Source: Meghimatium bilineatum
Taxonomy: Eukaryota; Mollusca; Gastropoda; Stylommatophora; Philomycidae
Assembly: GCA_034231615.1 (NCBI GenBank)
Contig: CM067317.1
Coordinates: forward strand, 16,142,394 to 16,206,393
DNA: 64,000 nucleotides
Direction of reading: 5' to 3'
The translations under genes and the position numbers were made by a program. The notes beneath the pieces are model-generated. The model was given only the letters and a program-made list of their open reading frames with translations, made no database searches and was not told the origin of the DNA. Positions 5,575-39,170 of this stretch are shown here, piece by piece. Numbering within the stretch: the stretch's first letter is position 1; each line of letters begins with the position of its first letter.

Positions 5575-5965
5575 TTTCCCCTAACAAAAACAATGTATAA
5601 AACACAAGATAAACATATTCATCCGGCAGTAAATATACAAACTTGCCTTTTATCAAGAATTACGATTGGCAGTGGCGTAAACGTAGGCCTATATGTGGTG
5701 TCTGTGGACATGTAACGAGACGCGATTCTCTTTTATACAATTATTTTGCAAAGAGCAGTTGTGGATGGAAGGAGAAGAGGCAGAGAACAAATACTGAATT
5801 GACAACACTAAGGAATGGTCTATGCATGCTTTTTATACTCTTCCAAACGGATGAGGGTAAAGGTGTATGGAGGGCTTTTTGTGCGGATGTCTCCAGTGTG
5901 CCTCACCCCCACTACCCTGACGGGTTATGTGTTTTATTATTATATGTAGGCATATGTATCTCTGT
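5575..5965. other. No gene seen
   Basis: A spacer between the RNase H LINE and the Tigger-like transposase. A short open frame exists but has no recognisable motif until the transposase homology begins near 5970. It may be the eroded 5' part of the transposase gene. Confidence 0.4.
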
Positions 5966-10614: not shown

Positions 10615-11232
10615 CTATCTATCTATCTATTCGCCGAGACCCTTTTTTGCCTTTCGACGTCAGGGGTAGAAGAGTTCTATGAAGACGGCCCTCTTGTGTG
10701 CTGAGTATATTGTGGAGTTTGTCGCTTCTTTTATTTCGGTGGTCCATCGTTTTGGTGGTTGGCCTCTAGGTCTGCCTTAGCTGTAGCTGTGTAGCATAGC
10801 TTGTTGTGGTATGCTGTCTAATGGTAGTCTGCTGATGTGTAAAAAATAATTTGATCTGTTGTCTCTTGATGTATTCTAAGGTTGGGGTGGTGTCGGTATT
10901 TTGTCAGTTGTCCTCATTACTCACCCTGTCTCTTAGCGATATTCCTAGGAATCTGCATAAGCATGTCATTTCAGCTGTCACCAGTTTACGTTTGTCTTGC
11001 GCTGTCGTTGTTCATATCTAGCATTGGTAGCACAGTGTTGGCATAATACTCGTTTTGAATAGTGTTATTTTGGTGTTTAAATCTACGTAATTGTTTCTGA
11101 AGATTGGTGTCATTTGCCCTAGGCCTTGGTATGCTTCACTACATCTATTGTGTATTTCTTTGCTGCTCTTGCCGTCTGTTATATTACTTCCTAAGTATGT
11201 GAATTATGTTACTTCGTTAAGTCTATTGTTTT

Positions 11233-12604: not shown

Positions 12605-12825
12605 TATTACTTCTTCTTCTTTCTTCTTCAGCGTTCATTCTCAAACTCCCACTGGATATCTCTTGTAGCAGGACCATGGTCCTATTAGATTTCCAGAAGG
12701 ATGTAGTTCAGAGAATGGAAATGCGTTGTGTCGCCGTTTTATTTGCGCCAATGGCCCGTCACATCCGTTTTCGGCGGATATTAGTATTACAAGAGCAATA
12801 TGCCTACTTGTAAAAATAAATTGAA
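12605..12825 (-). mobile_element. SINE-like dispersed repeat, antisense, with (GAA)n tail
   Basis: Starts on plus with TTCTTCTTCTTTCTTCTTC, the complement of a (GAA)n tail, then CATTCTCAAACTCCCACTGGAT and sequence shared with copies at 34486, 38110, 38262, 43190, 47485 and 63345 (for example CAGAGAATGGAA / CAGAGAACGGAA). Non-coding. I name it SINE-like from its size, its tail and its dispersal. Confidence 0.7.
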
Positions 12826-15569: not shown

Positions 15570-15775
15570 ACATATTCTTTGCAGAACATAGTCTTCCTTA
15601 TGAATTCTCTGAATGAACACTCCGCAATTCCTTGCGAGGTGACCTGCCGCAATTAATTGCCCCATCGTCGTTTTTGACGCCCTCTTCCCATGTTGCCGTT
15701 AACTCTGCCTTCAGTTATTAATCTTTTCATGCTTTTATGTCTCTTTATATGACCAATGAAAATATAAAAAAAAAT
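15570..15775 (-). mobile_element. LINE family A C-terminal fragment, interrupted by LINE D
   Basis: Minus-strand translation gives FIGHIKRHKSMKRLITEGRV, a GRGRQKRRWGN segment and REFIRKTMFCK, the late family A motifs. It joins 12975-13000 across the LINE D insertion. The 11-bp duplication is at 15570-15580. Confidence 0.8.
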
Positions 15776-15872
15776 AACAGAGCTTTCTTATTAGGATGTT
15801 GTTTAGGAGCCAGCCCCCTTCGACGCTTATTGATCTTAACACTTCTTGATTTGTCTTTTTAGCTGTCCATGT

Positions 15873-16985
15873 TATGTTATGCTCATCCAGGGCCATAGGC
15901 GGCGAATAAGGCAGAAACCATAGCTTTCCATTTCTGTCTTTGTGTTGCCAGGTCTTTTAGTTCTTGGGTGCTGTTTAGGTTTATTGACATGTCTTCTCTA
16001 TTAATGGTTCTTCGTAGAGTTTCTCTAGGTCTCCCTCTTCTTTTTACTCCCAGTGACTCAAAATTTGGTGACTGATGGGGAATTCCTAGGCTGTTCATTC
16101 TGAGAGCATGGCCGATGTTAAGACCATAGCCTTTATATAATGAAGAAATAGATATAGGTTTGTTTGCTTTCCTCTCTTATAGTAGTGTTAAATTTAAAGT
16201 CACTCCACGTAACGATCAGAATGGTACGTAGGCATTTGTTTTCAAAGGTGTTTAGTCTCTTATCTGTGGCTTTTGTGGATTTCCAGCTTTCACATCCATG
16301 TGATAGAATAGGTATACTGTTGGAGTTAACAACCCGAGTTTTGTATGGTGTTTCTTAGTGTGTTAGACGTCCAGATGTTACGTAGTTTATTGGAAGAACC
16401 TGCTGCAAGGGCAATACGGTGTAAACAATTTTTTTGATGTGTCCCCATCCAGTGCTGATTGGTGCCTAAATATGTAAAATTGTTGACTTTTAATAATGGA
16501 ACATATTGAATTTTTATATCATCGTTGGATCTCGTGAAATCTAGTATATGAGTTTTTGATGTGTTGATTTTAAGGCCTAACTGATTTGAGTAGTGTTGGA
16601 GATTTGTCAAGTTTAGATTGAGCATCTGCGTGGTTTGAGCTTAAAAGGGCCAGATCCTTTGCGTAGTGAAGATATTCGAGAACGGTACTGTCAATCCATT
16701 TTATTCATGTCTGCTCATTTTCAGTCCTCTTTCTCATGACCCAATCAAGAGCGACGCAAAAAGAAGTAATGGGGACATAAAGCATCCCTGTGTTAACGCC
16801 CGTAACAACTTGGAACCATTCTGACTTCTCAGTGTTTGTTTGAACACAACAATGTGAGTTGGTGTAAAATGCCTTTATAACATTATTTTAGTAGGAAAAC
16901 CGTATTGTTGTAGAACATTCCATAGCGTATGCCGATGAAGACTATCAAATGCTTTTTCAAAGTCAACAAAGTTGATGGGATGTCC
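15873..16985 (-). mobile_element. LINE family D second copy, degenerate, antisense
   Basis: Strong nucleotide similarity to 14465-15569 in reverse, beginning with GTTATGTTATG (complement of the CATAA tail) and ending where the RT FVDFEKAFDS motif would begin. On the minus strand KRRGRPRETLRRTINRED, SKTHILDFTRSNDD and the GMSPLLF-equivalent region are recognisable but broken by frameshifts. It lies about 300 bp downstream in opposite orientation to the intact copy, so the two can pair as an imperfect inverted repeat. Confidence 0.9.
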
Positions 16986-18150: not shown

Positions 18151-18785
18151 ATGCTGCCAAGAAACAAACTGTGGTAATATCAAAAATTGGATTGACATGT
18201 TATATTCATCTAAACGTACAGTTTTCTTGTTATTGAGTTATGCTACCAAGAAACAAACTGTGGTAATATCAAAATTGGATTGACATGTTATATTCATCTA
18301 AACGTACAGTTTTCTTATTATTGAGTTATGATACCAAGAAACAAACTGTGGTAATATCAAAAATTGGATTGACATGTTATATTCATCTAAACGTACAGTT
18401 TTCTTATTATTGAGTTATGCTACCAAGAAACAAACCGTGGTAATATCAAAATTGGATTGACATGTTATATTCATCTAAACGTACAGTTTTCTTATTATTG
18501 AGTTATGCTACCAAGAAACAAACCGTGGTAATATCAAAAATTGGATTGACATGTTATATTCATCTAAACGTACAGTTTTCTTGTTATTGAGTTATGCTAC
18601 CAAGAAACAAACTGTGGTAATATCAAAAATTGGATTGACATGTTATATTCATCTAAACGTACAGTTTTCTTGTTATTGAGTTATGCTACCAAGAAACAAA
18701 CTGTGGTAATATCAAAAATTGGATTGACATGTTATATTCATCTAAACGTACAGTTTTCTTGTTATTGAGTTATGCTACCAAAAAT
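18151..18785 (+). repeat. 89-bp satellite, seven units
   Basis: Units start at about 18151, 18240, 18328, 18417, 18505, 18594 and 18683, each 88 or 89 bp and nearly identical; an eighth breaks down at 18772. Each contains CCAAGAAACAAACTGTGG and CATCTAAACGTACAG. The length difference comes from an A4/A5 run. Diverged half-units continue to about 18960. Confidence 0.95.
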
Positions 18786-18899: not shown

Positions 18900-19141
18900 C
18901 GTTACATCCGTGATAATCAAGGTATACAACGTTTTGTTATTACATTCGTACTGTCAACCATGCCACCTCCTATTACAGTCCTTGGTATACGTAAAATTCT
19001 TCTGTAGATACATCTCATTTCGAAAGCAGCGATTCTTTGTGCTATTGTTTTTTTTTAATGTTCATGCCTCACAACCGTATATTACCACCGGAATTACACA
19101 TGTTCTGATCATACATAGTTTGGTATTGCTGCTGGTACCTT
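18900..19141 (-). mobile_element. LINE family A fragment, C-terminal side (split by the palindrome)
   Basis: Minus-strand translation gives a VVIYGCEA thumb motif (one stop after it) and, in another frame, FEMRC..RRILRI. It continues the reading frame of 34180-34345 when the 15-kb palindrome and one TACCTT are ignored. It ends in the target duplication. Confidence 0.8.
19136..19141. repeat. 6-bp target site duplication (left) of the palindromic element
   Basis: TACCTT directly abuts the first base of the palindrome and recurs at 34180-34185 immediately after its last base. The bases beyond each copy differ. A 6-bp duplication is the size reported for Maverick/Polinton integration. Confidence 0.85.
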
Positions 19142-19154
19142 AGTAGTATATAGC

Positions 19155-19610
19155 CAGCATAATAGGACGTGGATAAGACATGATAAGACATGATAGGACA
19201 TGATAAGACATGATAAGTCATATAGCCCATATAACAAAATACTCAGGATAAGGGTGATAAGCAGAGGTCGTGCAGGTCGTGCAGAGGTCGTGCAGGTCGT
19301 GCAGAGGGCGTGCAAAGGTCGTGTCATGTTACATAACCGGATAATACACTCGACACGAGTGTGCTTTTTTATAGTCCATATAACATTATACTCGGCCTGG
19401 AGAGACCGTGTAAATGGGCGTCATGTTACGTCATGTTACATAACCGAACAATACTTAACTCATATAACAATATACTGGATACGGAGTGATCGTGCAAAGG
19501 TGGCACCATGCCCCGTGCTGTTACATAACGGGCTTTAATATAGCCCAAATAACAATAAACGTGTCATACAAAAGTCGGGTAAAGGTTGTCACCTGGTACT
19601 TATCCGGTTA
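19155..19610 (+). repeat. Subterminal repeats, left end
   Basis: Two kinds of repeat sit just inside the terminus. First, AGACATGATA units (19165-19220) and GTCGTGCAG units (19264-19310). Second, a roughly 100-bp module repeated about three times, each with GTTACATAACCG and CATATAACAATATACT words and a CGTGCAAAGG stretch. Subterminal repeats often act as binding sites for a recombinase; here that is only a suggestion. Confidence 0.75.
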
Positions 19611-20229
19611 ATATATACCTTATATAATAATGAGATGTGAATGTGTCGAGTGTGCGGCTGAATGTACTGAGTGTGTCCGCACATCCCATATGACGGCAAT
19701 CGAAACCGGCCGAACCGACCGGCGGCGGAGTGTGGCCCGGAGCGATACCCACTCGCTGTGGCCGAATCCGGGGAAATTGTGTATCTAATGATGCGAATGT
19801 GTGTGGGGTGGGTCTGTTATTTGGTAGTGGAATTTTCCTTTTATTTGTTTTGGTGATACAAGGAGCTGGGCTCGTGATAAAGAAAAAATTTCCACTGCGA
19901 CTTCCAGTGAATGAGTTCTGCAAAACCCCACCTTCTCCCACTTGTTTCGGTGGGGTTGCGTTTGGTGAGTATTAACATGTTATGACCTTATTTGTTTAGT
20001 GGCTATTTTGTGGTTTTTCCACTGAAATTTATTTATGGTTCTATCTTTTTATATAAAACGAACCAATTTTAAACCAAATGTGAAAGAGCATGCAAAGTTC
20101 AGATCATAAAACTGCCAGATGCAAACAATTCCTTAGAAGGAATAGTACTGACGTGTGTGTCACTTGTGTTTAAAATTCAAATTCCCACCAGCAAAACACC
20201 ATAAAACTTTACGATACAAGGCCAATTAA

Positions 20230-20700
20230 CCATCTGTTAGGGCACGGAAACTTACACAAAATGTTGTCAGCATAACCGGGTTACGCTGTCGGGGTCATCC
20301 ATAACACTACCCTATTTAGAGCTGGTTCAAACTGTACGATGACATAACACAGACGCGTACTTTTCCACAAAGAAAATGGGATGGAAACTTTGAAAGAATG
20401 AGGTCAGCATAACCGGATCACGCGATCGGTGTCAGCAATATGAATGCCCTATTTAGCTCTGTTTCATTGTGTTGAAGCTCAAATTATGTTCCGAAAAACA
20501 TTGTAAATCATGAGGCTACAAGGTAAATTAGCCCTCTATTAGCTCACGGGCTATTTCAATATATACTAATTAGCGTACTTTTCCACAAAGAAAACGATAC
20601 TGGAATCTTAGCACGATTGATGTCAGCATAATCCGATCACGCAACCAATATATGAAAGTGAACACCCTTTATCTATCTTAGCTGTCTCTGTCTGTATATA
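20230..20700 (+). repeat. Repeated module with GTCAGCATAA core, left arm
   Basis: GTCAGCATAACCGG, or a near variant, occurs near 20266, 20402 and 20631, each followed by a GATCACGC-like word and a CTATTTAG/CTTTATC stretch. GCGTACTTTTCCACAAAG precedes two of them. Spacing is irregular (about 135 and 230 bp). Non-coding; role unknown. Confidence 0.6.
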
Positions 20701-20818
20701 AGCACTATAAACATGGTTGGTGTCCGAATGTAGGGATTTCGTTTCGTGATCATGCTATATTATTATTAATGATATTAATATACTGATACAAATGTTATTT
20801 AAATTATTAGTTTGAATT

Positions 20819-21103
20819 TCAAACAGTATTGTACAAAATATTTCCAACTCTATGAAATATTTTTAAACTAGAAACCCAATCCCTGTTTACACTCCAGCAA
20901 TAAACCCCACAGGTAGGTCTTAACGGCTTAATTACTGGCTCGAGACGACGAACGCGTATCAATCGATAATCACCAAGCGTGACGGGTTGACCACGGTATA
21001 AAATTGTGGTTAACACCTTCTGTTCTGACAATCGTCGCTCTGACACTTTTATTACGGCAATTTTGAATATTTGTAAATCTGACTGTGCAACACAATTTAG
21101 CAA
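20819..21103 (-). CDS. Unknown ORF of about 94 codons, left arm
   Basis: Open on the minus strand, with no ATG at its 5' end, so it would need an upstream exon or a non-ATG start. It is rich in basic residues (RLIRVRRLEPVIKPLRP) and ends in YNTV. I recognise no family. It is identical in the mirrored arm, which only reflects the palindrome. It could be the last exon of an element gene or a chance frame. Confidence 0.25.
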   Translation of the reverse strand: MLNCVAQSDLQIFKIAVIKVSERRLSEQKVLTTILYRGQPVTLGDYRLIRVRRLEPVIKPLRPTCGVYCWSVNRDWVSSLKIFHRVGNILYNTV

Positions 21104-21218
21104 TGTGGTATGAGTGTTCTTAAACTCCCTAAGTCTTTGTACATATATAGTTAAATATACCTTGATGCAAGAGTTAGAAATTGTACAAAATTAATACAAT
21201 TTCATTATTACATGCCCT

Positions 21219-21222
<4 letters not shown>

Positions 21223-21252
<30 letters not shown>

Positions 21253-21510
21253 CTGTTTTTCTTTCCGTTCTTCCTAGCTTCGGCCTTTTCTTTTGTTTAT
21301 CTTCATGTTAAAGGTTGGTATGTTTGATGTAATCTGGGTGTTTATCTTTGTATGTGTTCTTATGACGCTGGTAGTAGTGATTGGTCGTCTGCGAAGCGCA
21401 ATTCGTTTGAGTTATCTCTTATATTGTTTTCTTCAGTTGTTTTTGCTGCTTTGGTGATGTGATCTAAGTATGTTATATATAGATGGACACACACACACAC
21501 ACACATACAT
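21223..21510 (-). mobile_element. LINE family C RT fragment, left arm
   Basis: Begins with a (TA)n tract and shares CATGTTAAAGGT and TGTTTGATGTAATCT words with 11340-11390. On the minus strand RFADDQSLL, an RT catalytic box, is visible. It ends at a (CA)n stretch (21486-21505). The same fragment sits in the other arm, so it was in the sequence before the inverted copy was made. Confidence 0.82.
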
Positions 21511-21859
21511 ACTTACAGATATTTTCAAAGCTCTGTAGCGTGTTTAAATCTTTACAAAAGAAACATTTGATATATATGCACATTCTCAAACTTCCCCCTT
21601 ACAGTTGAGTGATTCCAAGTTGTTATCAAACACGGTTCGGGGTTGCCACACAATTGGAGTTATTAATAAACAATCTTTTTTAATGTTAAATTTTAAAGAA
21701 AGGAGCGCATTAATCATAATATGAATAAGGTTCTCCACACATTCTTCTGTGCCTTGGCCAACGGTTCTCATTATTTAATGCTTATATGCAAGTGCTTCTC
21801 ACATTGTAAAATTGAAAATTATGGTGCTGGGTGGTTAATATAACTCATATAACAAAATT

Positions 21860-24680
21860 TTTCTCAGAATATTCACACTAGCTTCTATCACATTCTACCC
21901 TGTTTAATATTTTCTTAGTATGTTCTCACTAGGCTCTGCAACTATTTTCTCACTTCACGCTTTAGCCATGGTCGCCGGGTGGTCTCTGTATGAGCTTCAA
22001 CTATGTTCTACCATATTATCATTATGGTCTCACTAACTTCTAACAGGGTCTACTTTGGTCCAATATATTCTTAGTATATTTTCGCTAGAGTCTTAAACTA
22101 GGTTCTCATGTGCAGCTTCAATTATGTTCTCTCTGTGTTTTGAGTTATTTTTCTCTACCAAAAGGTTTCTTATTAACATATTTCATTAGCGCAAACGGCG
22201 TGTTTATCAGATGTCGAAATTAACAAGTCACACGAAAACACATTTCAGCCCTTTCTCACTAACAACATAGTACATTTGAGAAGTTTTATTTGTGTAAACT
22301 TAACATTTATTGGTGTGTTGTTTTTTTTTCACAACTAGATAACCCACTTATACGGATTTTCGATGTTTTATTAGTTGTCTAAATTGTCATACGAAAATAC
22401 ATTTCAGTATTTTTGCAGTGACAACATGACAAATTTTATCGGGTTTGTATTTGTGTGACTGTACCATGTACCATTTTTCCACAATTAACCAATCTGATTT
22501 TAGTGATTTTCATTATGTTTTATCATTTGTCTAAATTATCATACCACACGAAACATATTTCAGTACTTTTACACAAACATTATAACACATTTTTTTATTT
22601 GTGTAAGTACATCATTTACAATTTTTTCACAAGTAACCAACCCACTTTTACTATGTTATCATACTAAAAGAACCAATTTTTTAGTACGTTGCCACTAACA
22701 ACATAACACATTTTGCCATGTTTTTATTTGTGGGCCTGCGCCATTTATCAATTTTAGTGATGTTCGTTATGTTTTATCAGTAGTTATCTAAATTAGATAC
22801 CATACAAACCCATATTTCAGTACTTTTGCACAAACATCATAACACATTTACCATGTTTTATTTGTGCGCTTCCAACATTTATTACTATTTTTGCAATTAC
22901 ACAATCCGAATTGGGTGATTTTCGTTATGTTTTATCAGATGTCTAAGTTATGATACCATACGAAGCTATTTTTCAGTACGTTGCCATTAACAACATAACA
23001 ACTTTTGACATGTTTTTATCTGTTGGACAATCACTTATCACTTTTTCACAACTAGGCAGTTTGGTGGTAGCGCCTTTCAGTGTGATCAGACAGTATTTAT
23101 CTTTTTTTCTATACTTACAGTTGCGCATTTCACGACATTTAGATACAAAACACGGTTCCAATGAACTTATTTTCATATGGTAAACTGCATGTTTTATCTG
23201 TTTTCAAAATTATTATCCCATACGAAATAACATGCCAACACTTCTCACTAACCTCATACACCATTTCGACAAACTTCTGTTTATGAAACAGCATCGCTGA
23301 TCACTACTCATAGACAATACCAACACATTTCACACATAGATTCTGTCAATATCCCGTACTGATAGTCCGTGCTTATCCCCCGTGCTTATACCACGTTCTG
23401 ATATCCCATGCTAATAGCCCGTGCTGTTATACCTATCAAAATCCGCTGCTGATATCCGCTGTCAAGATCCGCTACTGATAGCTCTAGTCAAGAACTGATG
23501 CTGACATCCCTTGATGTCAATCGACGTGTTGCATCCTTTTTTCACAACTAGGCAAACTGCTTATAACACTTTTTGTTATGATCGAAAGCATTGGGCGCTG
23601 ATTTTCTAGACATACAAGGTAAATGTTTCTATTTGTATATACCACGTCTCATATTACATATTTCCATATGACAAATTGCTTGTTTAGCCCTTTTAACAGC
23701 TATGCAAGTCGCTTTTAACACATTTACATATAATAAACTGCATGTTTTTCACTTGTCACAGTTAGGCAAGCCGCTTTTAACGCATTACCATTTGACAAAC
23801 GGTATGTTTTATCAGTTATCACACCATATGAAAACCTATTACAAGGCGTTTACACTAAAACACAACGCATTTATCACTTTTCACAGCTAGACGTGCTGCT
23901 TTTCGTAGTTTTACAATGAGTAAAGTCACTATTTCACCCGTGTCTAGACTAACAATGACAAATTACAGTGGTTTTATGTACCAACATGTTTAATATTACA
24001 TATATCCAAATGACAGAAGGCATGTTTATCACTTTTCACAACTAGGCAAAGCCCTTTTAACACATTTTGCTATAATCAAAGACATTGGGTGGGGACTTTC
24101 TAGACTTACAATGCAAATTTCCTTATTTGTATGTACCAACAAGGTTCATATTACGTATTTCCATAGGACAACCTTCATGTTTTATCACTGTTCACAACTA
24201 GGTAAATCGCTTTTAACAATTGTTGGTATTACCAAAAGCTATGTGTGGTGGTTCTCTAGACTTACACTGTAAATTTTCCTATTTTTATGCACCAACCGGT
24301 TTCATATTGCATATTTCCAAACGACAAAGTTCATGTTTTATCACTTTTCACAGCTAGCCAAAACGATTTTAACACTTTTCATATGACAAACCACATGTTT
24401 TATTAGTTTTCTAAATTATCAGGTTATATGAAACCACATTACAATACGTTTACACTAAAAACATAACGCATTTAAGTACTTTTCACAGCTAGACAAACCA
24501 CCTTTCGTAGTTTTCGCAATGAGCAAAGACATTATTTTGCACGTTGCTAGACTTACAAAGGCAAATTACCATACTTTTATGTACCAACAAGGTTCATATT
24601 ATATATGTCCATATGACAAGCTTCAGGTTTATCGCTTTTCACAATTAGGCAAACCGCGTTTCGCAAACCCCTAGCTATAA
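21860..24680 (+). repeat. Degenerate repeat field of the left arm
   Basis: About 2.8 kb of diverged repeats. Recurrent words are CATGTTTTATCA, TTCACAACTAGGCAAA, CATATGACAAA, AACATAACACATTT and, before 22140, TATGTTCTCACTAG. Period is roughly 150-200 bp and irregular. Near 23345-23480 there is a subfield of CCGTGCTGATATCC-like units of about 18 bp. Short frames in it are not credible genes. Confidence 0.7.
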
Positions 24681-25203
24681 CCCGGGTGATATCACATGAC
24701 ATTAGCCAAGGCCGATAGCCCCTGTTGATACCCATGACAATGACCTAGGACACTACACCCTGTTAATAGCTCATCGGGATATCACCCTACTAACAAACCA
24801 TACTAATATAATATTCGTTATTAACACCAACACGACTAAAAAACCCTGATACAGGACTATCTGGCTAGGAACAACTGACACATTTCTTACAACTAAATAC
24901 CGATACAATATAAGAGCCGTTGTTGTTGGTTATGGTTTGCATATATTTCCCAGTTATAGACAAATATATACCAAGCTAAACTCGACAATATATTTTTTTT
25001 AAAAGACAATCACATATTTAAAAAAATACTGACAAATACAGAAAAGACATACACAGAAAAATTTAACAACGCAGGTTGCCTCATAATGGTTTGTTGAATC
25101 ATTTGAACGACATACATAGCGTAGTTAGAAAGGGGTATATTTGGTGTCAGCATTTACCATCTATAAGAACAGCTTCAATTGGTTGTGTCGGTTGTCTAAA
25201 CAC

Positions 25204-26290
25204 TCAACCCAACGGATGGTCGTTTATAAAATATAAGTCGAAAGACGTTCCCACAGTGTTCTCCAGCTGATATTTGGTATTTGGCCGCGTATTCTGGGCA
25301 ACATTCATAGGGTCAGCTTCGTTAACTTTCTGAACAAAGAGGTCAAAGTCGTGTCTATTATTTATCAGCGCTGGGTACTCTAAAACAGCCGAATTGTTAA
25401 CTGAGCCGTGAAAAAATCTTGGTTCTAATGTCTCTCGATGTCGTAATATCAAATGTTTGGAAAAGTTCACTTTGAACCTCTTAGTTTGGTCAGTGAACAT
25501 GGGTCTTAGAACCTCATTCCAGTCTTGTATATGAGGTATCGTTGGGGGATGAAAAAACGTGTAAGTCGCGCTGGACTTACGAACTGTGATATGTGTATGT
25601 ATAGTTGACCAATTATCGATATATATTTGCTGTATGTCTAATGGTAAACCAGCTAAAAAATCGAATTGGGGTGAGTTAGGTGCCCGTGGTGTTAGTGTTC
25701 TTATGGTGCCGTTATTGTCTGGTAGTAGTGGTTGTGGTGATAATGGAGGTACACTGTTTTCAGAGGTAGCAGACAGCGACAAGGGCGATGTAATTTCCAA
25801 AACTGCTGCTAACGAAGAGCCAGTCATATGTGGGGGTGAAACTGATAACGTTAGTGGTGTAACTGGCGCAGATGCATGACCAACACGCCCGTTCATTTGT
25901 TCTTGGTGTTTCTTTACGTGTCGCTGTAAAGACGCAACAGCAGAATAGTCACTCTTACAAACAGAACAGTTATATCGACGCTTAATGTGCAAATTCTGAC
26001 AATGTCTACGTAGTGTATATACGCGTTTAAACTCTTTCCCACAAGTTTCACAGGCGTAGGCTTTGCTACCCGGGGCGACCTGGTGATGATAAAACACAAA
26101 GATGTCAATAGGAGAAACACATATATTTTAGTCGATGTAACAACCAAACCATAATAAAAGCATCGCTTAATAACAGAATATACGCAATAATACACACTAA
26201 TTATAACCAAACAGAGCTAATGCAGTGACAAACGGGCATGGTGGTTAGCTCGCCACATACCGACGAGGTAAGCACCATAAAAACTAACAT
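25204..26290 (-). CDS. Zinc-finger protein of the palindromic element, left copy (2 exons)
   Basis: Mirror copy of 27032-28118. Exons 26261-26290 and 25204-26079 with an intron of 181 bp are proposed. Two C2H2 fingers lie at the N-terminus, followed by a Pro/Ser/Thr-rich linker and a C-terminal globular region. It differs from the right copy by one residue (Asn here, Lys there, from the 25279/28043 difference). Transcription runs away from the palindrome centre. Confidence 0.7.
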
Positions 26291-26648
26291 ACATCATATA
26301 ACAAAACAAAGGTATTACATACAACCAACGTACCGGTTGAACTGAAACCATAACGGCTAATTATACAACAACAGAGGTTAGCTTTTCGGTTATCTATTAT
26401 ACCTCTGTAACACACTAGAAAACACGTTGGGTGTTGGTAGTTCAAAAAACACGACTTAATGAGACCACTAAGGACTGTCACGGATATTTATTAGACCTGG
26501 GGAACCAAAAAGCTATTTTCACTAACCCTAATCGCCATGAAAAATTATATATGTCTATGTACCAGTGAATTATTTTTTTTTTAGCTAGTCATAAGCGAAC
26601 TTTTATCACACCAAACAAATTCAACCACATACCCTCCTCTTATTACTA

Positions 26649-26673
26649 TAGCCACTAACACATACAAGGTGAC
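26649..26673. other. Central 25-bp loop of the palindrome
   Basis: The only non-palindromic DNA in the element, bracketed by ATTACTA and TAGTAAT. The two zinc-finger genes diverge from here, with first exons about 360 bp away on either side, so the loop region must hold, or separate, two mirrored promoters. AT-rich TATATAAT words lie at about 26771 and at the mirror position. Confidence 0.9.
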
Positions 26674-27031
26674 TAGTAATAAGAGGAGGGTATGTGGTTG
26701 AATTTGTTTGGTGTGATAAAAGTTCGCTTATGACTAGCTAAAAAAAAAATAATTCACTGGTACATAGACATATATAATTTTTCATGGCGATTAGGGTTAG
26801 TGAAAATAGCTTTTTGGTTCCCCAGGTCTAATAAATATCCGTGACAGTCCTTAGTGGTCTCATTAAGTCGTGTTTTTTGAACTACCAACACCCAACGTGT
26901 TTTCTAGTGTGTTACAGAGGTATAATAGATAACCGAAAAGCTAACCTCTGTTGTTGTATAATTAGCCGTTATGGTTTCAGTTCAACCGGTACGTTGGTTG
27001 TATGTAATACCTTTGTTTTGTTATATGATGT

Positions 27032-28118
27032 ATGTTAGTTTTTATGGTGCTTACCTCGTCGGTATGTGGCGAGCTAACCACCATGCCCGTTTGTCACTGC
27101 ATTAGCTCTGTTTGGTTATAATTAGTGTGTATTATTGCGTATATTCTGTTATTAAGCGATGCTTTTATTATGGTTTGGTTGTTACATCGACTAAAATATA
27201 TGTGTTTCTCCTATTGACATCTTTGTGTTTTATCATCACCAGGTCGCCCCGGGTAGCAAAGCCTACGCCTGTGAAACTTGTGGGAAAGAGTTTAAACGCG
27301 TATATACACTACGTAGACATTGTCAGAATTTGCACATTAAGCGTCGATATAACTGTTCTGTTTGTAAGAGTGACTATTCTGCTGTTGCGTCTTTACAGCG
27401 ACACGTAAAGAAACACCAAGAACAAATGAACGGGCGTGTTGGTCATGCATCTGCGCCAGTTACACCACTAACGTTATCAGTTTCACCCCCACATATGACT
27501 GGCTCTTCGTTAGCAGCAGTTTTGGAAATTACATCGCCCTTGTCGCTGTCTGCTACCTCTGAAAACAGTGTACCTCCATTATCACCACAACCACTACTAC
27601 CAGACAATAACGGCACCATAAGAACACTAACACCACGGGCACCTAACTCACCCCAATTCGATTTTTTAGCTGGTTTACCATTAGACATACAGCAAATATA
27701 TATCGATAATTGGTCAACTATACATACACATATCACAGTTCGTAAGTCCAGCGCGACTTACACGTTTTTTCATCCCCCAACGATACCTCATATACAAGAC
27801 TGGAATGAGGTTCTAAGACCCATGTTCACTGACCAAACTAAGAGGTTCAAAGTGAACTTTTCCAAACATTTGATATTACGACATCGAGAGACATTAGAAC
27901 CAAGATTTTTTCACGGCTCAGTTAACAATTCGGCTGTTTTAGAGTACCCAGCGCTGATAAATAATAGACACGACTTTGACCTCTTTGTTCAGAAAGTTAA
28001 CGAAGCTGACCCTATGAATGTTGCCCAGAATACGCGGCCAAAGACCAAATATCAGCTGGAGAACACTGTGGGAACGTCTTTCGACTTATATTTTATAAAC
28101 GACCATCCGTTGGGTTGA
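27032..28118 (+). CDS. Zinc-finger protein of the palindromic element, right copy (2 exons)
   Basis: The long open frame (27195-28118) has no ATG before the fingers. I propose a 30-nt first exon (27032-27061, ATG at 27032, donor GTATGT at 27062) and acceptor CACCAG at 27237-27242, both phase 0, giving about 301 residues. Residues from about 16 to 63 hold two C2H2 fingers: CETC...H-x4-H and CSVC...H-x3-H. A Pro/Ser/Thr-rich stretch follows (about 75-140), then a C-terminal domain of about 150 residues with DWNEVLRPMF, a KVNFSKHLILRH segment and FINDHPLG at the end. From memory, similar C-terminal domains occur in uncharacterised proteins beside Maverick-type polymerase genes of invertebrates; I could not check this. 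Function is unknown; the fingers suggest DNA binding. Confidence 0.72.
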
Positions 28119-28641
28119 GTGTTTAGACAACCGACACAACCAATTGAAGCTGTTCTTATAGATGGTAAATGCTGACACCAAATATACCCCTTTCTAACTA
28201 CGCTATGTATGTCGTTCAAATGATTCAACAAACCATTATGAGGCAACCTGCGTTGTTAAATTTTTCTGTGTATGTCTTTTCTGTATTTGTCAGTATTTTT
28301 TTAAATATGTGATTGTCTTTTAAAAAAAATATATTGTCGAGTTTAGCTTGGTATATATTTGTCTATAACTGGGAAATATATGCAAACCATAACCAACAAC
28401 AACGGCTCTTATATTGTATCGGTATTTAGTTGTAAGAAATGTGTCAGTTGTTCCTAGCCAGATAGTCCTGTATCAGGGTTTTTTAGTCGTGTTGGTGTTA
28501 ATAACGAATATTATATTAGTATGGTTTGTTAGTAGGGTGATATCCCGATGAGCTATTAACAGGGTGTAGTGTCCTAGGTCATTGTCATGGGTATCAACAG
28601 GGGCTATCGGCCTTGGCTAATGTCATGTGATATCACCCGGG

Positions 28642-31462
28642 TTATAGCTAGGGGTTTGCGAAACGCGGTTTGCCTAATTGTGAAAAGCGATAAACCTGAA
28701 GCTTGTCATATGGACATATATAATATGAACCTTGTTGGTACATAAAAGTATGGTAATTTGCCTTTGTAAGTCTAGCAACGTGCAAAATAATGTCTTTGCT
28801 CATTGCGAAAACTACGAAAGGTGGTTTGTCTAGCTGTGAAAAGTACTTAAATGCGTTATGTTTTTTAGTGTAAACGTATTGTAATGTGGTTTCATATAAC
28901 CTGATAATTTAGAAAACTAATAAAACATGTGGTTTGTCATATGAAAAGTGTTAAAATCGTTTTGGCTAGCTGTGAAAAGTGATAAAACATGAACTTTGTC
29001 GTTTGGAAATATGCAATATGAAACCGGTTGGTGCATAAAAATAGGAAAATTTACAGTGTAAGTCTAGAGAACCACCACACATAGCTTTTGGTAATACCAA
29101 CAATTGTTAAAAGCGATTTACCTAGTTGTGAACAGTGATAAAACATGAAGGTTGTCCTATGGAAATACGTAATATGAACCTTGTTGGTACATACAAATAA
29201 GGAAATTTGCATTGTAAGTCTAGAAAGTCCCCACCCAATGTCTTTGATTATAGCAAAATGTGTTAAAAGGGCTTTGCCTAGTTGTGAAAAGTGATAAACA
29301 TGCCTTCTGTCATTTGGATATATGTAATATTAAACATGTTGGTACATAAAACCACTGTAATTTGTCATTGTTAGTCTAGACACGGGTGAAATAGTGACTT
29401 TACTCATTGTAAAACTACGAAAAGCAGCACGTCTAGCTGTGAAAAGTGATAAATGCGTTGTGTTTTAGTGTAAACGCCTTGTAATAGGTTTTCATATGGT
29501 GTGATAACTGATAAAACATACCGTTTGTCAAATGGTAATGCGTTAAAAGCGGCTTGCCTAACTGTGACAAGTGAAAAACATGCAGTTTATTATATGTAAA
29601 TGTGTTAAAAGCGACTTGCATAGCTGTTAAAAGGGCTAAACAAGCAATTTGTCATATGGAAATATGTAATATGAGACGTGGTATATACAAATAGAAACAT
29701 TTACCTTGTATGTCTAGAAAATCAGCGCCCAATGCTTTCGATCATAACAAAAAGTGTTATAAGCAGTTTGCCTAGTTGTGAAAAAAGGATGCAACACGTC
29801 GATTGACATCAAGGGATGTCAGCATCAGTTCTTGACTAGAGCTATCAGTAGCGGATCTTGACAGCGGATATCAGCAGCGGATTTTGATAGGTATAACAGC
29901 ACGGGCTATTAGCATGGGATATCAGAACGTGGTATAAGCACGGGGGATAAGCACGGACTATCAGTACGGGATATTGACAGAATCTATGTGTGAAATGTGT
30001 TGGTATTGTCTATGAGTAGTGATCAGCGATGCTGTTTCATAAACAGAAGTTTGTCGAAATGGTGTATGAGGTTAGTGAGAAGTGTTGGCATGTTATTTCG
30101 TATGGGATAATAATTTTGAAAACAGATAAAACATGCAGTTTACCATATGAAAATAAGTTCATTGGAACCGTGTTTTGTATCTAAATGTCGTGAAATGCGC
30201 AACTAAGTATAGAAAAAAAGATAAATACTGTCTGATCACACTGAAAGGCGCTACCACCAAACTGCCTAGTTGTGAAAAAGTGATAAGTGATTGTCCAACA
30301 GATAAAAACATGTCAAAAGTTGTTATGTTGTTAATGGCAACGTACTGAAAAATAGCTTCGTATGGTATCATAACTTAGACATCTGATAAAACATAACGAA
30401 AATCACCCAATTCGGATTGTGTAATTGCAAAAATAGTAATAAATGTTGGAAGCGCACAAATAAAACATGGTAAATGTGTTATGATGTTTGTGCAAAAGTA
30501 CTGAAATATGGGTTTGTATGGTATCTAATTTAGATAACTACTGATAAAACATAACGAACATCACTAAAATTGATAAATGGCGCAGGCCCACAAATAAAAA
30601 CATGGCAAAATGTGTTATGTTGTTAGTGGCAACGTACTAAAAAATTGGTTCTTTTAGTATGATAACATAGTAAAAGTGGGTTGGTTACTTGTGAAAAAAT
30701 TGTAAATGATGTACTTACACAAATAAAAAAATGTGTTATAATGTTTGTGTAAAAGTACTGAAATATGTTTCGTGTGGTATGATAATTTAGACAAATGATA
30801 AAACATAATGAAAATCACTAAAATCAGATTGGTTAATTGTGGAAAAATGGTACATGGTACAGTCACACAAATACAAACACGATAAAATTTGTCATGTTGT
30901 CACTGCAAAAATACTGAAATGTATTTTCGTATGACAATTTAGACAACTAATAAAATATCGAAAATCCGTATAAGTGGGTTATCTAGTTGTGAAAAAAAAA
31001 CAACACACCAATAAATGTTAAGTTTACACAAATAAAACTTCTCAAATGTACTATGTTGTTAGTGAGAAAGGGCTGAAATGTGTTTTCGTGTGACTTGTTA
31101 ATTTCGACATCTGATAAACACGCCGTTTGCGCTAATGAAATATGTTAATAAGAAACCTTTTGGTAGAGAAAAATAACTCAAAACACAGAGAGAACATAAT
31201 TGAAGCTGCACATGAGAACCTAGTTTAAGACTCTAGCGAAAATATACTAAGAATATATTGGACCAAAGTAGACCCTGTTAGAAGTTAGTGAGACCATAAT
31301 GATAATATGGTAGAACATAGTTGAAGCTCATACAGAGACCACCCGGCGACCATGGCTAAAGCGTGAAGTGAGAAAATAGTTGCAGAGCCTAGTGAGAACA
31401 TACTAAGAAAATATTAAACAGGGTAGAATGTGATAGAAGCTAGTGTGAATATTCTGAGAAAA
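28642..31462 (-). repeat. Degenerate repeat field of the right arm
   Basis: Mirror image of 21860-24680, with TGATAAAACATG and GCCTAGTTGTGAA as the recurrent words. Non-coding. Confidence 0.7.
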
Positions 31463-31810
31463 TTTTTGTTATATGAGTTATATTAACCACCCAGCACCAT
31501 AATTTTCAATTTTACAATGTGAGAAGCACTTGCATATAAGCATTAAATAATGAGAACCGTTGGCCAAGGCACAGAAGAATGTGTGGAGAACCTTATTCAT
31601 ATTATGATTAATGCGCTCCTTTCTTTAAAATTTAACATTAAAAAAGATTGTTTATTAATAACTCCAATTGTGTGGCAACCCCGAACCGTGTTTGATAACA
31701 ACTTGGAATCACTCAACTGTAAGGGGGAAGTTTGAGAATGTGCATATATATCAAATGTTTCTTTTGTAAAGATTTAAACACGCTACAGAGCTTTGAAAAT
31801 ATCTGTAAGT

Positions 31811-32068
31811 ATGTATGTGTGTGTGTGTGTGTGTCCATCTATATATAACATACTTAGATCACATCACCAAAGCAGCAAAAACAACTGAAGAAAACAATAT
31901 AAGAGATAACTCAAACGAATTGCGCTTCGCAGACGACCAATCACTACTACCAGCGTCATAAGAACACATACAAAGATAAACACCCAGATTACATCAAACA
32001 TACCAACCTTTAACATGAAGATAAACAAAAGAAAAGGCCGAAGCTAGGAAGAACGGAAAGAAAAACAG

Positions 32069-32099
<31 letters not shown>
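31811..32099 (+). mobile_element. LINE family C RT fragment, right arm
   Basis: Mirror copy of 21223-21510: (TG)n, then the RFADDQSLL box near 31920-31950, then the (TA)n tract. Confidence 0.82.
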
Positions 32100-32102
<3 letters not shown>

Positions 32103-32217
32103 AGGGCATGTAATAATGAAATTGTATTAATTTTGTACAATTTCTAACTCTTGCATCAAGGTATATTTAACTATATATGTACAAAGACTTAGGGAGTTTA
32201 AGAACACTCATACCACA

Positions 32218-32502
32218 TTGCTAAATTGTGTTGCACAGTCAGATTTACAAATATTCAAAATTGCCGTAATAAAAGTGTCAGAGCGACGATTGTCAGAACA
32301 GAAGGTGTTAACCACAATTTTATACCGTGGTCAACCCGTCACGCTTGGTGATTATCGATTGATACGCGTTCGTCGTCTCGAGCCAGTAATTAAGCCGTTA
32401 AGACCTACCTGTGGGGTTTATTGCTGGAGTGTAAACAGGGATTGGGTTTCTAGTTTAAAAATATTTCATAGAGTTGGAAATATTTTGTACAATACTGTTT
32501 GA
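32218..32502 (+). CDS. Unknown ORF of about 94 codons, right arm
   Basis: Mirror copy of 20819-21103. The frame stays open upstream to about 32131 without an ATG. No family recognised. Confidence 0.25.
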   Translation: MLNCVAQSDLQIFKIAVIKVSERRLSEQKVLTTILYRGQPVTLGDYRLIRVRRLEPVIKPLRPTCGVYCWSVNRDWVSSLKIFHRVGNILYNTV

Positions 32503-32620
32503 AATTCAAACTAATAATTTAAATAACATTTGTATCAGTATATTAATATCATTAATAATAATATAGCATGATCACGAAACGAAATCCCTACATTCGGACA
32601 CCAACCATGTTTATAGTGCT

Positions 32621-33091
32621 TATATACAGACAGAGACAGCTAAGATAGATAAAGGGTGTTCACTTTCATATATTGGTTGCGTGATCGGATTATGCTGACA
32701 TCAATCGTGCTAAGATTCCAGTATCGTTTTCTTTGTGGAAAAGTACGCTAATTAGTATATATTGAAATAGCCCGTGAGCTAATAGAGGGCTAATTTACCT
32801 TGTAGCCTCATGATTTACAATGTTTTTCGGAACATAATTTGAGCTTCAACACAATGAAACAGAGCTAAATAGGGCATTCATATTGCTGACACCGATCGCG
32901 TGATCCGGTTATGCTGACCTCATTCTTTCAAAGTTTCCATCCCATTTTCTTTGTGGAAAAGTACGCGTCTGTGTTATGTCATCGTACAGTTTGAACCAGC
33001 TCTAAATAGGGTAGTGTTATGGATGACCCCGACAGCGTAACCCGGTTATGCTGACAACATTTTGTGTAAGTTTCCGTGCCCTAACAGATGG
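32621..33091 (-). repeat. Repeated module with GTCAGCATAA core, right arm
   Basis: Mirror image of 20230-20700 (TTATGCTGAC words at about 32690, 32917 and 33048). Confidence 0.6.
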
Positions 33092-33710
33092 TTAATTGGC
33101 CTTGTATCGTAAAGTTTTATGGTGTTTTGCTGGTGGGAATTTGAATTTTAAACACAAGTGACACACACGTCAGTACTATTCCTTCTAAGGAATTGTTTGC
33201 ATCTGGCAGTTTTATGATCTGAACTTTGCATGCTCTTTCACATTTGGTTTAAAATTGGTTCGTTTTATATAAAAAGATAGAACCATAAATAAATTTCAGT
33301 GGAAAAACCACAAAATAGCCACTAAACAAATAAGGTCATAACATGTTAATACTCACCAAACGCAACCCCACCGAAACAAGTGGGAGAAGGTGGGGTTTTG
33401 CAGAACTCATTCACTGGAAGTCGCAGTGGAAATTTTTTCTTTATCACGAGCCCAGCTCCTTGTATCACCAAAACAAATAAAAGGAAAATTCCACTACCAA
33501 ATAACAGACCCACCCCACACACATTCGCATCATTAGATACACAATTTCCCCGGATTCGGCCACAGCGAGTGGGTATCGCTCCGGGCCACACTCCGCCGCC
33601 GGTCGGTTCGGCCGGTTTCGATTGCCGTCATATGGGATGTGCGGACACACTCAGTACATTCAGCCGCACACTCGACACATTCACATCTCATTATTATATA
33701 AGGTATATAT

Positions 33711-34166
33711 TAACCGGATAAGTACCAGGTGACAACCTTTACCCGACTTTTGTATGACACGTTTATTGTTATTTGGGCTATATTAAAGCCCGTTATGTAA
33801 CAGCACGGGGCATGGTGCCACCTTTGCACGATCACTCCGTATCCAGTATATTGTTATATGAGTTAAGTATTGTTCGGTTATGTAACATGACGTAACATGA
33901 CGCCCATTTACACGGTCTCTCCAGGCCGAGTATAATGTTATATGGACTATAAAAAAGCACACTCGTGTCGAGTGTATTATCCGGTTATGTAACATGACAC
34001 GACCTTTGCACGCCCTCTGCACGACCTGCACGACCTCTGCACGACCTGCACGACCTCTGCTTATCACCCTTATCCTGAGTATTTTGTTATATGGGCTATA
34101 TGACTTATCATGTCTTATCATGTCTTATCATGTCTTATCATGTCTTATCCACGTCCTATTATGCTG
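33711..34166 (-). repeat. Subterminal repeats, right end
   Basis: Mirror image of 19155-19610, including TATCATGTCT units at about 34101-34150. Confidence 0.75.
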
Positions 34167-34179
34167 GCTATATACTACT

Positions 34180-34185
34180 TACCTT
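34180..34185. repeat. 6-bp target site duplication (right) of the palindromic element
   Basis: TACCTT, identical to 19136-19141. Confidence 0.85.
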
Positions 34186-34345
34186 GCCAAAAATGTTTAA
34201 TTTGCGCAAGTTTCAATGTCGCTATTGCAATAATTCTCTTAATTTCTACAGTGCAGTCTCCTGGGCTATTTATGTTTGTGCCCAAATACAGGAAATGTGT
34301 TACATCTTCTAGTTCAACATTGCCAATTTTCTAAATTATATATTT
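34180..34345 (-). mobile_element. LINE family A fragment, N-terminal side (split by the palindrome)
   Basis: Minus-strand translation gives KIGNVELEDV, LYLGTNINSPGDCTVEIKR and an AQIKHFWQG segment, aligning with FEYLGANINSAGDCMAEIRK of the copy at 1740-1810. The frame then runs directly into 18900-19141 across the palindrome. Confidence 0.83.
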
Positions 34346-34485
34346 GTTATATATTAATTGGCTTGTCTCACAGACTCCTCTCAAATATGTTCAGAGTGTA
34401 GAAAGAAATCACAGGCGCGAATGTGACTCAGCCTATTAATTTTATTTCTGGTGCTGAATTGAGTTGATCATCAGACATTATATTT

Positions 34486-34640
34486 TTTATGTTCTAAAAC
34501 TCCCACTGGATCTTTCTTGTAGTAGGATAATAGTTCTACTAGATTTCCAGGTGAATAAAAGTCCAGAGTACAAAAATGCGTCCTGTCTCCATTTTATTTG
34601 GGGAAATAGCCAGACACATCTGACTTTGAAGTGAAAAAAA
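34486..34640 (-). mobile_element. SINE-like dispersed repeat (antisense)
   Basis: Contains TTCTAAAACTCCCACTGGAT, CTTGTAGTAGGA, AGATTTCCAGG and CATTTTATTTGGGG, matching 12635-12800. The tail end faces the palindrome. Non-coding. Confidence 0.65.
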
Positions 34641-35690
34641 AAACGTTCGGTCGTTTACCACTTCCACTGAACGGTGGATGTGTGTAAACATATCGATAGT
34701 AGATAAGCCGTATGAGAGAACTGGTTCTCGTACTGTACCCTGGATACCAATCTAAAGGCAAACAGCATATAAGCATATTTGACTTTTTTATAGTTGTAGG
34801 TATCGCTATCGACATAACTACAGCCATTCTTTATAGTGACATAACCGTGTTTTTCTTCGCTGAATATGTTCTTAATAACAGTCAGCTTCTTGTTATTTAA
34901 TAGTACACCATCCAGATAAACGAAGACAGTTATATTTGGGAAATACTTTATAATCAAGTCTAGATATGATGAAGATACGCTGATTATACTCATATTATAT
35001 AAACTGGCGTATCTCACCCTGTCCCCTATATGCCCCCCTTATTTTACATCAAAGACTAAACGGGAAGAAGTGAATATTTGCAGGCTATAATATTTGAACT
35101 ATCGTTTCAAATTCAAGCTAACATTTGTAATATGGTACCATTGTACATCTATGGCACGCTGTTGTTTGGATACACGTCTTTGTGCTAACAGGCGATACAC
35201 GCATCATGCCATGACAGTGTACACATAGATCGTGTTTAATTAAGTCGAATGGTTGTCGTTTTGGAAGTGTCAACAAACTGAATTTAGTTTATGTTTCGCC
35301 GTTAGCTCTGGTGATGTTAAATTCTAGAGTTTTGACTTTAATCACGCAATCATGTGGTTAAAAGTGCGGTTAAAAGTGGCCAGCATTGTTGCGACTAAAT
35401 CGTTACACGCTTTTATTTGATTACGTGTCTGAATACAAAATGGTGGAATGTGACTTCTTCCCTACATACAATTCATATTGTTGTTCGTCTATCACAAGTG
35501 ATGATAACCATTTGTAACATCCACTTTTTACATTTAGTTAGAGTTGTGTCCTTAACTATGAGTTCGTTGATGGCTAATACGCCCTATTATGACCGCATTG
35601 GCCGTAAACAGTTCGGGCATGGAATGACCTTTGTAGGTAATTTTTGGTCTACCAGTGACTTTCTAGCTACTCTCGGTTGTTGAACTGCTA
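34641..35690. other. No gene seen
   Basis: Short frames up to about 120 codons on both strands, none with a recognisable motif or with splice-bounded ends. Confidence 0.4.
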
Positions 35691-37442: not shown

Positions 37443-37538
37443 AATAAAACAGCAATAGTAGTAACAACAGAAACTGCTGCAGCAGTAGTAGTAATAACAG
37501 TGGTAGTAGTAGTAGTAGTAGTAGTAGTAATAGTAGTT

Positions 37539-37571
<33 letters not shown>

Positions 37572-37875
37572 ATAGTAGTAGTAGTAATAACAATAGTAGT
37601 AGTAGTAGTAGTAGTAGTAATAGTAGTAGTAGTAATAACAATAGTAGTAGTAGTAGTAGTAACAGTGGTAGTAGTAGTAGTAGTAATAGTAGTAGTAGTA
37701 GTAGTAATAGTATTAGTAGTAATAACAATAGTAGTAGTAGTAGTAGTAACAGTGGTAGTAGTAGTAGTAGTAGTAGTAATAATAATAACAGTGGTAGTAG
37801 TAACAATAGTATTAGTATCAGTAATGTTAATATTCACGGCATCAATAATGATAATAATAATAGTAGTAGTAGTAT
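37443..37875 (+). repeat. (GTA)n trinucleotide tract, about 430 bp
   Basis: Almost continuous GTA triplets with interspersed ATA, ACA and TTG variants. Internal higher-order copies are visible, such as repeated AATAACAATAGTAGT blocks. Frames through it read poly-Val, poly-Leu or poly-Thr and are not genes. Confidence 0.95.
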
Positions 37876-38094
37876 TCTTTAAATTGGGGTAATAATGTTG
37901 GCATCTGTGGCTATGTAGATAGCGAAGCTTACAGTGGCGAAAAGGACAAGTGAGCTTGACTTTGGTTAGCTTTCAGGTTTGTATCTCTTGTATAATACGG
38001 GAAACAAGTCTCTCGTATTGCTGGTCCACTAGTGAGAATGGTACATATTTCCAGCATTCGGTGTAACTGGTAAAACACCGAATGTATTAGTTAT

Positions 38095-38250
38095 CACACA
38101 GAAGTTGGATGTGTCTGGCCATTGTAGCAAATAAAACGGTGACACAACACATATCTGCTCTCTGGACTACATCCTGCCGGAAATCTAGTATAACCATTGT
38201 CCTGCTACAAGAAAGATCCAGTGGGAGTTTGAGATTAAAAAAAAATGAAA
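38095..38250 (+). mobile_element. SINE-like dispersed repeat (sense)
   Basis: GGATGTGTCTGGCCATTG, GACACAACACAT, GGACTACATCCTGC and GGGAGTTTGAGATT match 63510-63620. It ends in an A-rich tail next to the inverted copy at 38262. Confidence 0.7.
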
Positions 38251-38261
38251 TAGTAGTAGTA

Positions 38262-38400
38262 ATTGTTTTTCTGCACTCATTCTCACATTCCTGCAGATTA
38301 TCAGGATGTAGTCCAGAGAACGGAATATTTATGTCGTGGTTTACAGTTAGCTTCGATATTTACGCATTTTGTCCCGACACATTCAACTTCAGCATGACAT
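38262..38400 (-). mobile_element. SINE-like dispersed repeat (antisense)
   Basis: CATTCTCACATTCCTGCAGATT, then GGATGTAGTCCAGAGAACGG and a CCCGACACATTCAACTTCAG stretch, the reverse of 63505-63610. It forms a tail-to-tail inverted pair with 38095-38250. Confidence 0.7.
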
Positions 38401-38529
38401 ATTGGTCACTTTGAAATGGGACAGCCTACTCAACATCAAAACCTCTTTAGTCGCCGCTTAGGACATGCATGGAATGTCAATAGTAGTTGTTATTCTTGGC
38501 TTCCATTTTATATTCAAAAACACGAGGAC

Positions 38530-38565
38530 GTAGTAAGAGTAGCAGTAGTAGTAGTAGTAGTAGTT

Positions 38566-38598
<33 letters not shown>

Positions 38599-38620
38599 AT
38601 AGTAGTAGTAGGAACTGTTG
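38530..38620 (+). repeat. (AGT)n trinucleotide tract
   Basis: About 30 AGT triplets with a few TTGTAGT and AATAGT variants. Confidence 0.93.
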
Positions 38621-38689
38621 TTGTTATTGCTGCTACAATGATTTTATAGATCCAATTGATAGTACAGAAAAAGTAATAGTTCTCATAAA

Positions 38690-39170
38690 GGTAGTAGGAT
38701 TAGCAACAGTTGTAGTCGTAGTGACAGTCGTAGTAATTTAGTATTAGTAGATAGTAGTATATAGTTTTATATGTAGTAGTAGCAGCAGGAGTAGTGGTAA
38801 TGCTAGCAGCAGCAGTTTTAGTATAATATTAATAGTAGTAGTAGGTAGTTGTAGTGGCCGCAACAGAAGTAGTAAAATAGAAGTACTACGAGTGGTAGTG
38901 GTAATAGTAGTATTAGTAGTATTAGTAGTAGCAGCAGTAGTAGTGTTACCAGTAGTAGCTAAAGTAGAGTATTAGTAATTTGAACTCTGAATGTGCAGTA
39001 ACATTCATCTTAGAACAGCAGCATTAGTATTCATATTAGTAGCAACAGAAGCAGCACAACGTTTTAGTAGAAGTATTAATAACAGTAGTAGTAATATCAG
39101 TAGCAATATTGTTAGAAGCAATAGCAGTTACATTGATAACACACCGATAAGTTATATATATTATTAATAA
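38690..39170 (+). repeat. Degenerate AGT/AGC trinucleotide field
   Basis: Broken runs of AGTAGT, AGCAGC and AATAGTAGT words over about 480 bp, an eroded neighbour of the purer tracts at 37443 and 38530. Confidence 0.7.

Follow-up and report, generated by a model that had tools for sequence, protein, structure and literature searches.

We analysed a window of 64,000 nucleotides, the whole stretch taken from contig CM067317.1 of the gastropod Meghimatium bilineatum, and confirmed that its assembled sequence contains a 15-kb near-perfect palindrome. Rather than a sequencing error, the palindrome is most likely a mobile element of mirror-image structure that is Maverick-like but in which no Maverick genes were recognised. 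Its termini, its target-site duplication (TSD) and the reverse-transcriptase element that it interrupts together indicate one mobile-element insertion. Our preferred account, held tentatively and at close to an even chance, is that a non-autonomous, fully palindromic element of the Polinton/Maverick type, formed by snap-back and moved in trans, was inserted once into an older element resembling a long interspersed nuclear element (LINE).

Extent and symmetry of the palindrome

When the window was compared with itself, 19142-34179 matched its own reverse complement at 99.8% over 15,044 columns. The palindromic element is 15,038 bp in total, and its 3' end is GGCTATATACTACT. The initial annotation had described two reverse-complement arms of about 7.5 kb with almost no spacer, and had proposed a self dot-plot as a check. 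Self-comparison and arm alignment showed the coordinates given there to be exact, the loop proved to be exactly 25 bp, and the self-comparison gave a single inverted match over the full 19142-34179. The palindrome itself was thus correctly recognised, but its transposon-like termini, the 6-bp TSD and the interrupted reverse-transcriptase element had been overlooked. The parts of the element are as follows.

19142..26648, plus strand: left arm, 7507 bp, starting with AGTAGTATATAGCC (self-comparison and arm alignment)
26649..26673, no strand: unique central loop, exactly 25 bp (sequence inspection)
26674..34179, minus strand: right arm, 7506 bp, finishing in ACTACT (self-comparison and arm alignment)
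19142..19147, plus strand: terminal motif (AGT)2, as in vertebrate Mavericks (PMC8097293)
34174..34179, plus strand: terminal motif (ACT)2 (PMC8097293)
19136..19141, no strand: left copy of the TSD, TACCTT (read from the sequence)
34180..34185, no strand: right copy of the TSD, TACCTT (read from the sequence)

Aligned with each other, the arms are identical in 7500 of 7508 columns, with five mismatches and three gap columns. These make up seven differences, namely five substitutions and two indels (one of 2 bp and one of 1 bp). That the differences are few had been noted before; three of the seven had been named, and the four others are added here.

19196 (left)/34125 (right): substitution, G-A
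21858/31463: substitution, T-A
22365/30956: substitution, G-A
22442/30879: substitution, G-T
25279/28043: substitution, A-C
23117-23118: indel of 2 bp
24456/28866: indel, A5/A6

A chance origin of the palindrome was rejected: among the matches listed in the self-comparison, the runner-up by score is a far smaller inverted pair (1.1 kb, 90%). The positions of the seven differences are compatible with an even spread along the arm (Kolmogorov-Smirnov p 0.83, n = 7), as would be expected if the whole arm had been duplicated at one time. Such a spread fits both a snap-back origin and an expansion in place. In the latter case, an ordinary Maverick or another transposon would have been inserted, and its short inverted repeats would then have grown inward until only 25 bp were left unique, through gene conversion or break repair in which one half was overwritten with the other, copied from the inverted repeat of the sister or of the same molecule. 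We regard this course as possible but rather unlikely. It is the strongest rival because the terminal inverted repeats (TIRs) of Galileo, a Drosophila element of the P superfamily, extend by recruiting internal sequence (PMC4168063, PMC3573991), and may grow until almost nothing else is left. In D. willistoni, Galileo copy 112 measures 9,021 bp and its two TIRs 4,246 and 4,680 bp; tandem repeats lie within it, its TSDs are identical, and it is described as having no transposase segment (PMC4168063). This published case is an exception to the rule stated in the initial annotation, by which unique genes are usually retained between large inverted repeats. The present element resembles copy 112 in being almost all TIR, in its internal tandem repeats and identical TSDs and in having no transposase segment, and tandem repeats inside very long TIRs are known for Galileo. 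On the other hand, copy 112 belongs to the P-element superfamily and has unequal arms with 95 bp left by subtraction, and Galileo TSDs in D. willistoni are 7-8 bp (PMC4168063), against 6 bp here. Growth in place would have retained both TSDs and flanks that can be rejoined. However, it requires one or more conversion tracts of up to 7.5 kb that halted within 25 bp of the centre, and the arm differences do not separate an old outer TIR from a young inner part, a comparison that has little power with n = 7.

Ends and target-site duplication

The direct repeat TACCTT abuts both ends of the palindrome, and the identity is exactly 6 bp with no extension either way. The arm homology ends exactly where the 5'-AGTAGT...ACTACT-3' termini meet this repeat. 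Identical abutting 6-mers occurred at 91 of 200,000 random position pairs within the window, so that a match at both precise ends is unlikely to be due to chance, even with the end motif left uncounted. In the 61.8 kb of the window outside AGT arrays, there are 21 occurrences of AGTAGT and 18 of ACTACT, the element's own ends counted. The window also carries AGT/GTA trinucleotide arrays of up to about 111 units at 37484-38977, with strong GC skew around them. The 21 terminal bases of the element had no exact match in IMG/VR.

These ends are those of the Polinton/Maverick group as it is described in vertebrates. Vertebrate Mavericks have perfect 6-bp TSDs, and (AGT)2//(ACT)2 is their commonest end motif (PMC8097293); either this motif or (AG)3//(CT)3 was taken as typical of the group. 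Intact vertebrate copies are 12,723-24,620 bp long with a mean of 16,862 (PMC8097293), a range of about 13-25 kb in which the 15,038 bp found here lies. The perfect 6-bp TSD (TACCTT) is likewise shared, although the reference data are from vertebrates and may not hold for this host. The present element differs from the group in that the second half is missing, and in that the core genes (protein-primed PolB, integrase, ATPase, protease and capsid proteins) were not recognised. For the latter reason, it would be at most a non-autonomous Polinton/Maverick derivative.

The insertion site in an older LINE-like element

To reconstruct the empty site, 1,500 bp of each flank were joined with one TACCTT, translated in six frames and matched against the window. 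On the minus strand, a reverse-transcriptase segment continues past the junction, which falls at residue 500 of the frame. The joined frame has matches that span this junction at five other places of the window, all at E 0.0003 or better. By itself, the right flank gave matches that run only to the junction, and the left flank gave one weak match that starts just past it. When flanks of 400 bp were joined, the DNA match that spans the junction was weak (E 0.012, 67% of 92 bp). As the flanks rejoin into a continuous reverse-transcriptase segment, the element interrupted an older LINE-like element, the two pieces of which are listed with coordinates derived from the alignment, followed by the five matched sites. 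These five are paralogous empty sites, not orthologous ones.

19008..19141, minus strand: left piece of the LINE-like reverse-transcriptase segment that was interrupted
34186..34330, minus strand: right piece of the same segment
1709-1987: paralogous empty site, 39/93 residues identical, E 5e-17, free of gaps
42542-42745: paralogous empty site, 27/68 residues identical, E 5e-14, free of gaps
14930-15217: paralogous empty site, 34/96 residues identical, E 2e-11
61784-62056: paralogous empty site, 32/91 residues identical, E 2e-9
11021-11230: paralogous empty site, 23/71 residues identical, E 3e-4

The places at 1709-1987, 42542-42745 and 11021-11230 are degenerate reverse-transcriptase fragments; of the paralogues found within the window, the first two are most similar to the target site.

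Fold-back reads are a known library artefact, on which the literature search listed no pertinent paper, and a mis-assembled interior has to be weighed here. A real Maverick-like insertion with its TSDs may be present in which the assembly shows, in place of one half, the reverse complement of the other half, owing to a chimeric fold-back read or a repeat that was collapsed; the arm differences would then be errors or the traces of two alleles or copies. By way of a shared TIR, an assembler could run on from the false arm into the true right flank. Such bridging needs a TIR, however, and the TIRs of intact vertebrate Mavericks are only 46-1,447 bp with a mean of 402 (PMC8097293). Moreover, nothing in a fold-back artefact by itself would make it stop exactly at a TSD with flanks that can be rejoined, and five of the seven arm differences are substitutions rather than homopolymer errors. 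Given the TSD, flanks that rejoin and arms that differ by substitutions, we consider mis-assembly very improbable. The empty-site match made its already small probability slightly smaller, and slightly strengthened the reading as a snap-back-formed Maverick-type insertion.

Content of the arms

Open reading frames (ORFs) were counted from stop to stop at a length of at least 70 codons where they overlap the right arm, including those that pass its outer end. There are 16 such ORFs, nine of which were scanned with Pfam. The sole long ORF of the element has 307 codons and is present once per arm, directed away from the centre. It is listed here with the repeat blocks of the arms.

27195..28118, plus strand: 307-codon ORF, right-arm copy, with two C2H2 zinc fingers at residues ~23-75; codon 283 is AAG
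25204..26127, minus strand: 307-codon ORF, left-arm copy; codon 283 is AAT
19162..19323, mirrored at ~33998-34149: subterminal short tandem repeats, a 10-bp GATAAGACAT unit followed by 9-, 11- and 20-bp units
22203..23054, left arm, mirrored at ~30267-31118: degenerate repeat block with a weak autocorrelation peak at 156
23541..24661, left arm, mirrored at ~28661-29782: degenerate tandem repeats with 62-bp and 156-bp units

The degenerate blocks with their 62- and 156-bp units are spread over about 2.5 kb of the arm. The lone arm difference inside the 307-codon ORF alters codon 283 (AAT/AAG). An open run of 307 codons was found in 0 of 300 composition shuffles of the arm. The 3-base periodicity of the ORF is 2.16 (1,000 shuffles: mean 0.74, maximum 2.71) and is only suggestive of coding, because it lies below the shuffle maximum. 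The two zinc fingers score below the Pfam cut-offs but are backed by phmmer matches to solved zinc-finger proteins (best 60 of 146), and the Pfam matches of the ORF are confined to this part. In PHROGs, the ORF had eight matches up to E 1, all over residues 22-85 and none in the C-terminal half. The C-terminal half had no match among solved structures either, and single-sequence structure prediction of the ORF gave no confident fold (mean pLDDT 32.8). Its C-terminal part may resemble the N-terminal region of Polinton PolB, a likeness that no search supported. There is no ATG ahead of the fingers, and AG (27241-27242) and GT (28114-28115) stand at possible splice positions; for these reasons the ORF may be an exon or a captured fragment. 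A double jelly-roll match in a short minus-strand ORF (28651-28908) was counted as chance (12.2 bits against a cut-off of 27, E 0.1). Over the whole window, there was no Rfam match at the gathering score and no transfer RNA in a scan with the bacterial code.

The zinc-finger part of the 307-codon ORF also gave a sub-threshold match to the MuDR transposase DNA-binding domain (E 0.069; 13.3 bits against a cut-off of 25). This match, together with the fact that no Polinton protein was recognised, would suit a foldback-type element, palindromic and non-autonomous, from a different DNA transposon superfamily that also makes 6-bp TSDs; the AGTAGT ends would then be coincidental. Long, internally repeated TIRs are known in foldback-type elements, some of them Mutator-related according to the titles of the papers. 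We find such an affiliation improbable, as the end motif, the TSD length and the total length all fit Mavericks. Two candidate groups also differ in detail: Galileo by the longer TSDs given above, and Ginger2 by its TGTNR termini (PMC2836005), where the present element has AGTAGT.

Proposed origin of the palindrome

If the element is a Polinton/Maverick derivative formed by snap-back, its parent Maverick would have been copied, as a free linear DNA molecule, by protein-primed strand displacement. In one round, the growing strand or a displaced one would have folded back near the middle, with the switch point at the 25-bp loop, and would have copied its own just-made end. One end would be present twice in the product, and the other end would be absent. 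As such a product carries a correct terminus on both sides, replication and integration enzymes supplied in trans could have copied and inserted it, and the integrase would have duplicated 6 bp of the target. The element would then be an integrated snap-back genome, similar to a defective-interfering one. The end repeats of Mavericks are expected to serve jumping-back in protein-primed replication (PMC8097293).

Several observations weigh against this account. The inverted repeats of 7.5 kb exceed the vertebrate maximum of 1,447 bp by about five times, and the data on end motif and TSD are from vertebrates and may not be the norm of this host. No Pfam match in the arm reached the cut-off of its family among the nine ORFs. 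No polymerase, integrase, ATPase, protease or capsid domain was found above cut-off in these nine ORFs or in 18 frame pieces of one arm. The frame pieces, i.e. the translated arm with X at the stops and matches taken up to E 0.1, gave only DUF7875 and the zinc finger, both below cut-off. The 307-codon ORF had no relatives among 1217 word-sharing candidates or 99 others in the protein collection, nor in IMG/VR or phage records. It has no ATG and is maybe an exon, whereas intact vertebrate Mavericks are described as intronless (PMC8097293). The three remoter paralogues of the empty site (14930-15217, 61784-62056 and 11021-11230) align with a gap of two residues within a few residues of the junction, and there is one further gap elsewhere in each alignment. 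Finally, the account needs the palindrome to have formed before the insertion, a presumed order of events.

Similar products are known from other linear DNAs. Adenovirus and the yeast killer linear plasmids are protein-primed and yield palindromic, inverted-dimer deletion derivatives, which, unlike the present element, are extrachromosomal and not transposons. The literature search returned nothing on point about these derivatives among the matches listed. The replication of adeno-associated virus (AAV) is hairpin-primed. AAV also differs from our case in being a single-stranded DNA virus with an extrachromosomal genome of ~4.7 kb. Snap-back genomes are a major class of its defective particles, in which one half is present as an inverted, self-complementary copy, either symmetric or asymmetric (PMC8235507). 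As we propose for the present element, they replicate when replication proteins and helper functions are given (PMC8235507). In yeast, hairpin-capped inverted amplicons of origin-dependent inverted-repeat amplification have inverted junctions formed at short inverted repeats by strand switching (PMC10766183). These junctions are in the host chromosome rather than in a mobile element, and the preferred spacing of the repeats is 40-80 bp, against a loop of 25 bp here; at spacings shorter than preferred, a hairpin on one strand is expected (PMC10766183). Among the matches listed from open-licence papers, no palindromic Polinton appeared in titles or abstract openings.

It is possible, though we remain doubtful, that the element is a chromosomally fossilised snap-back (defective-interfering-like) Maverick genome that gives evidence of a free linear replicating form and of re-integration in trans by the integrase of its parent. 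The virus-like life cycle of Mavericks has so far been deduced from their genes. A palindromic Maverick with intact ends and a TSD would be a physical product of the replication cycle, and would be direct sequence evidence that the free linear form makes palindromic deletion genomes. It would also mean that the ends alone suffice in cis. A transcript across the centre would be a long hairpin RNA, possibly a built-in source of small RNAs against the parent. Moreover, a natural 15-kb palindrome with a 25-bp loop that is kept in a chromosome could be a model for the tolerance of such DNA.

Neighbouring repeats and open reading frames

Many repeats lie throughout the window, besides ORFs for reverse transcriptase (RVT_1, DUF6451). 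One such ORF has 853 codons (RVT_1, DUF6451; 13004-15565, plus strand). An inverted copy of its 3' part (14468-15573), 90% identical, lies 295 bp beyond it at 15869-16976, and the two form a second, more diverged inverted pair near the palindrome. A similar reverse-transcriptase ORF is at 61454-62404 (plus strand), and 61169-62287 has about 66% DNA identity to 14330-15448. The ORF at 4970-5659 (minus strand) encodes an RNase H domain (Pfam PF00075, E 1.2e-14). Close to the element, an array of an 89-bp repeat (~7 copies, 97% matches, 18151-18781) stops about 360 bp to its left, and a dispersed repeat in the right flank (34483-34823) has an inverted copy at 37905-38244 and a partial copy at 12638-12765. 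Farther away, there are an inverted repeat pair of 0.96 kb (8790-9707 and 56209-57168, 87% identity, ~47 kb apart) and an array at 58902-59969 in which a 38-bp unit is present in about 28 copies.

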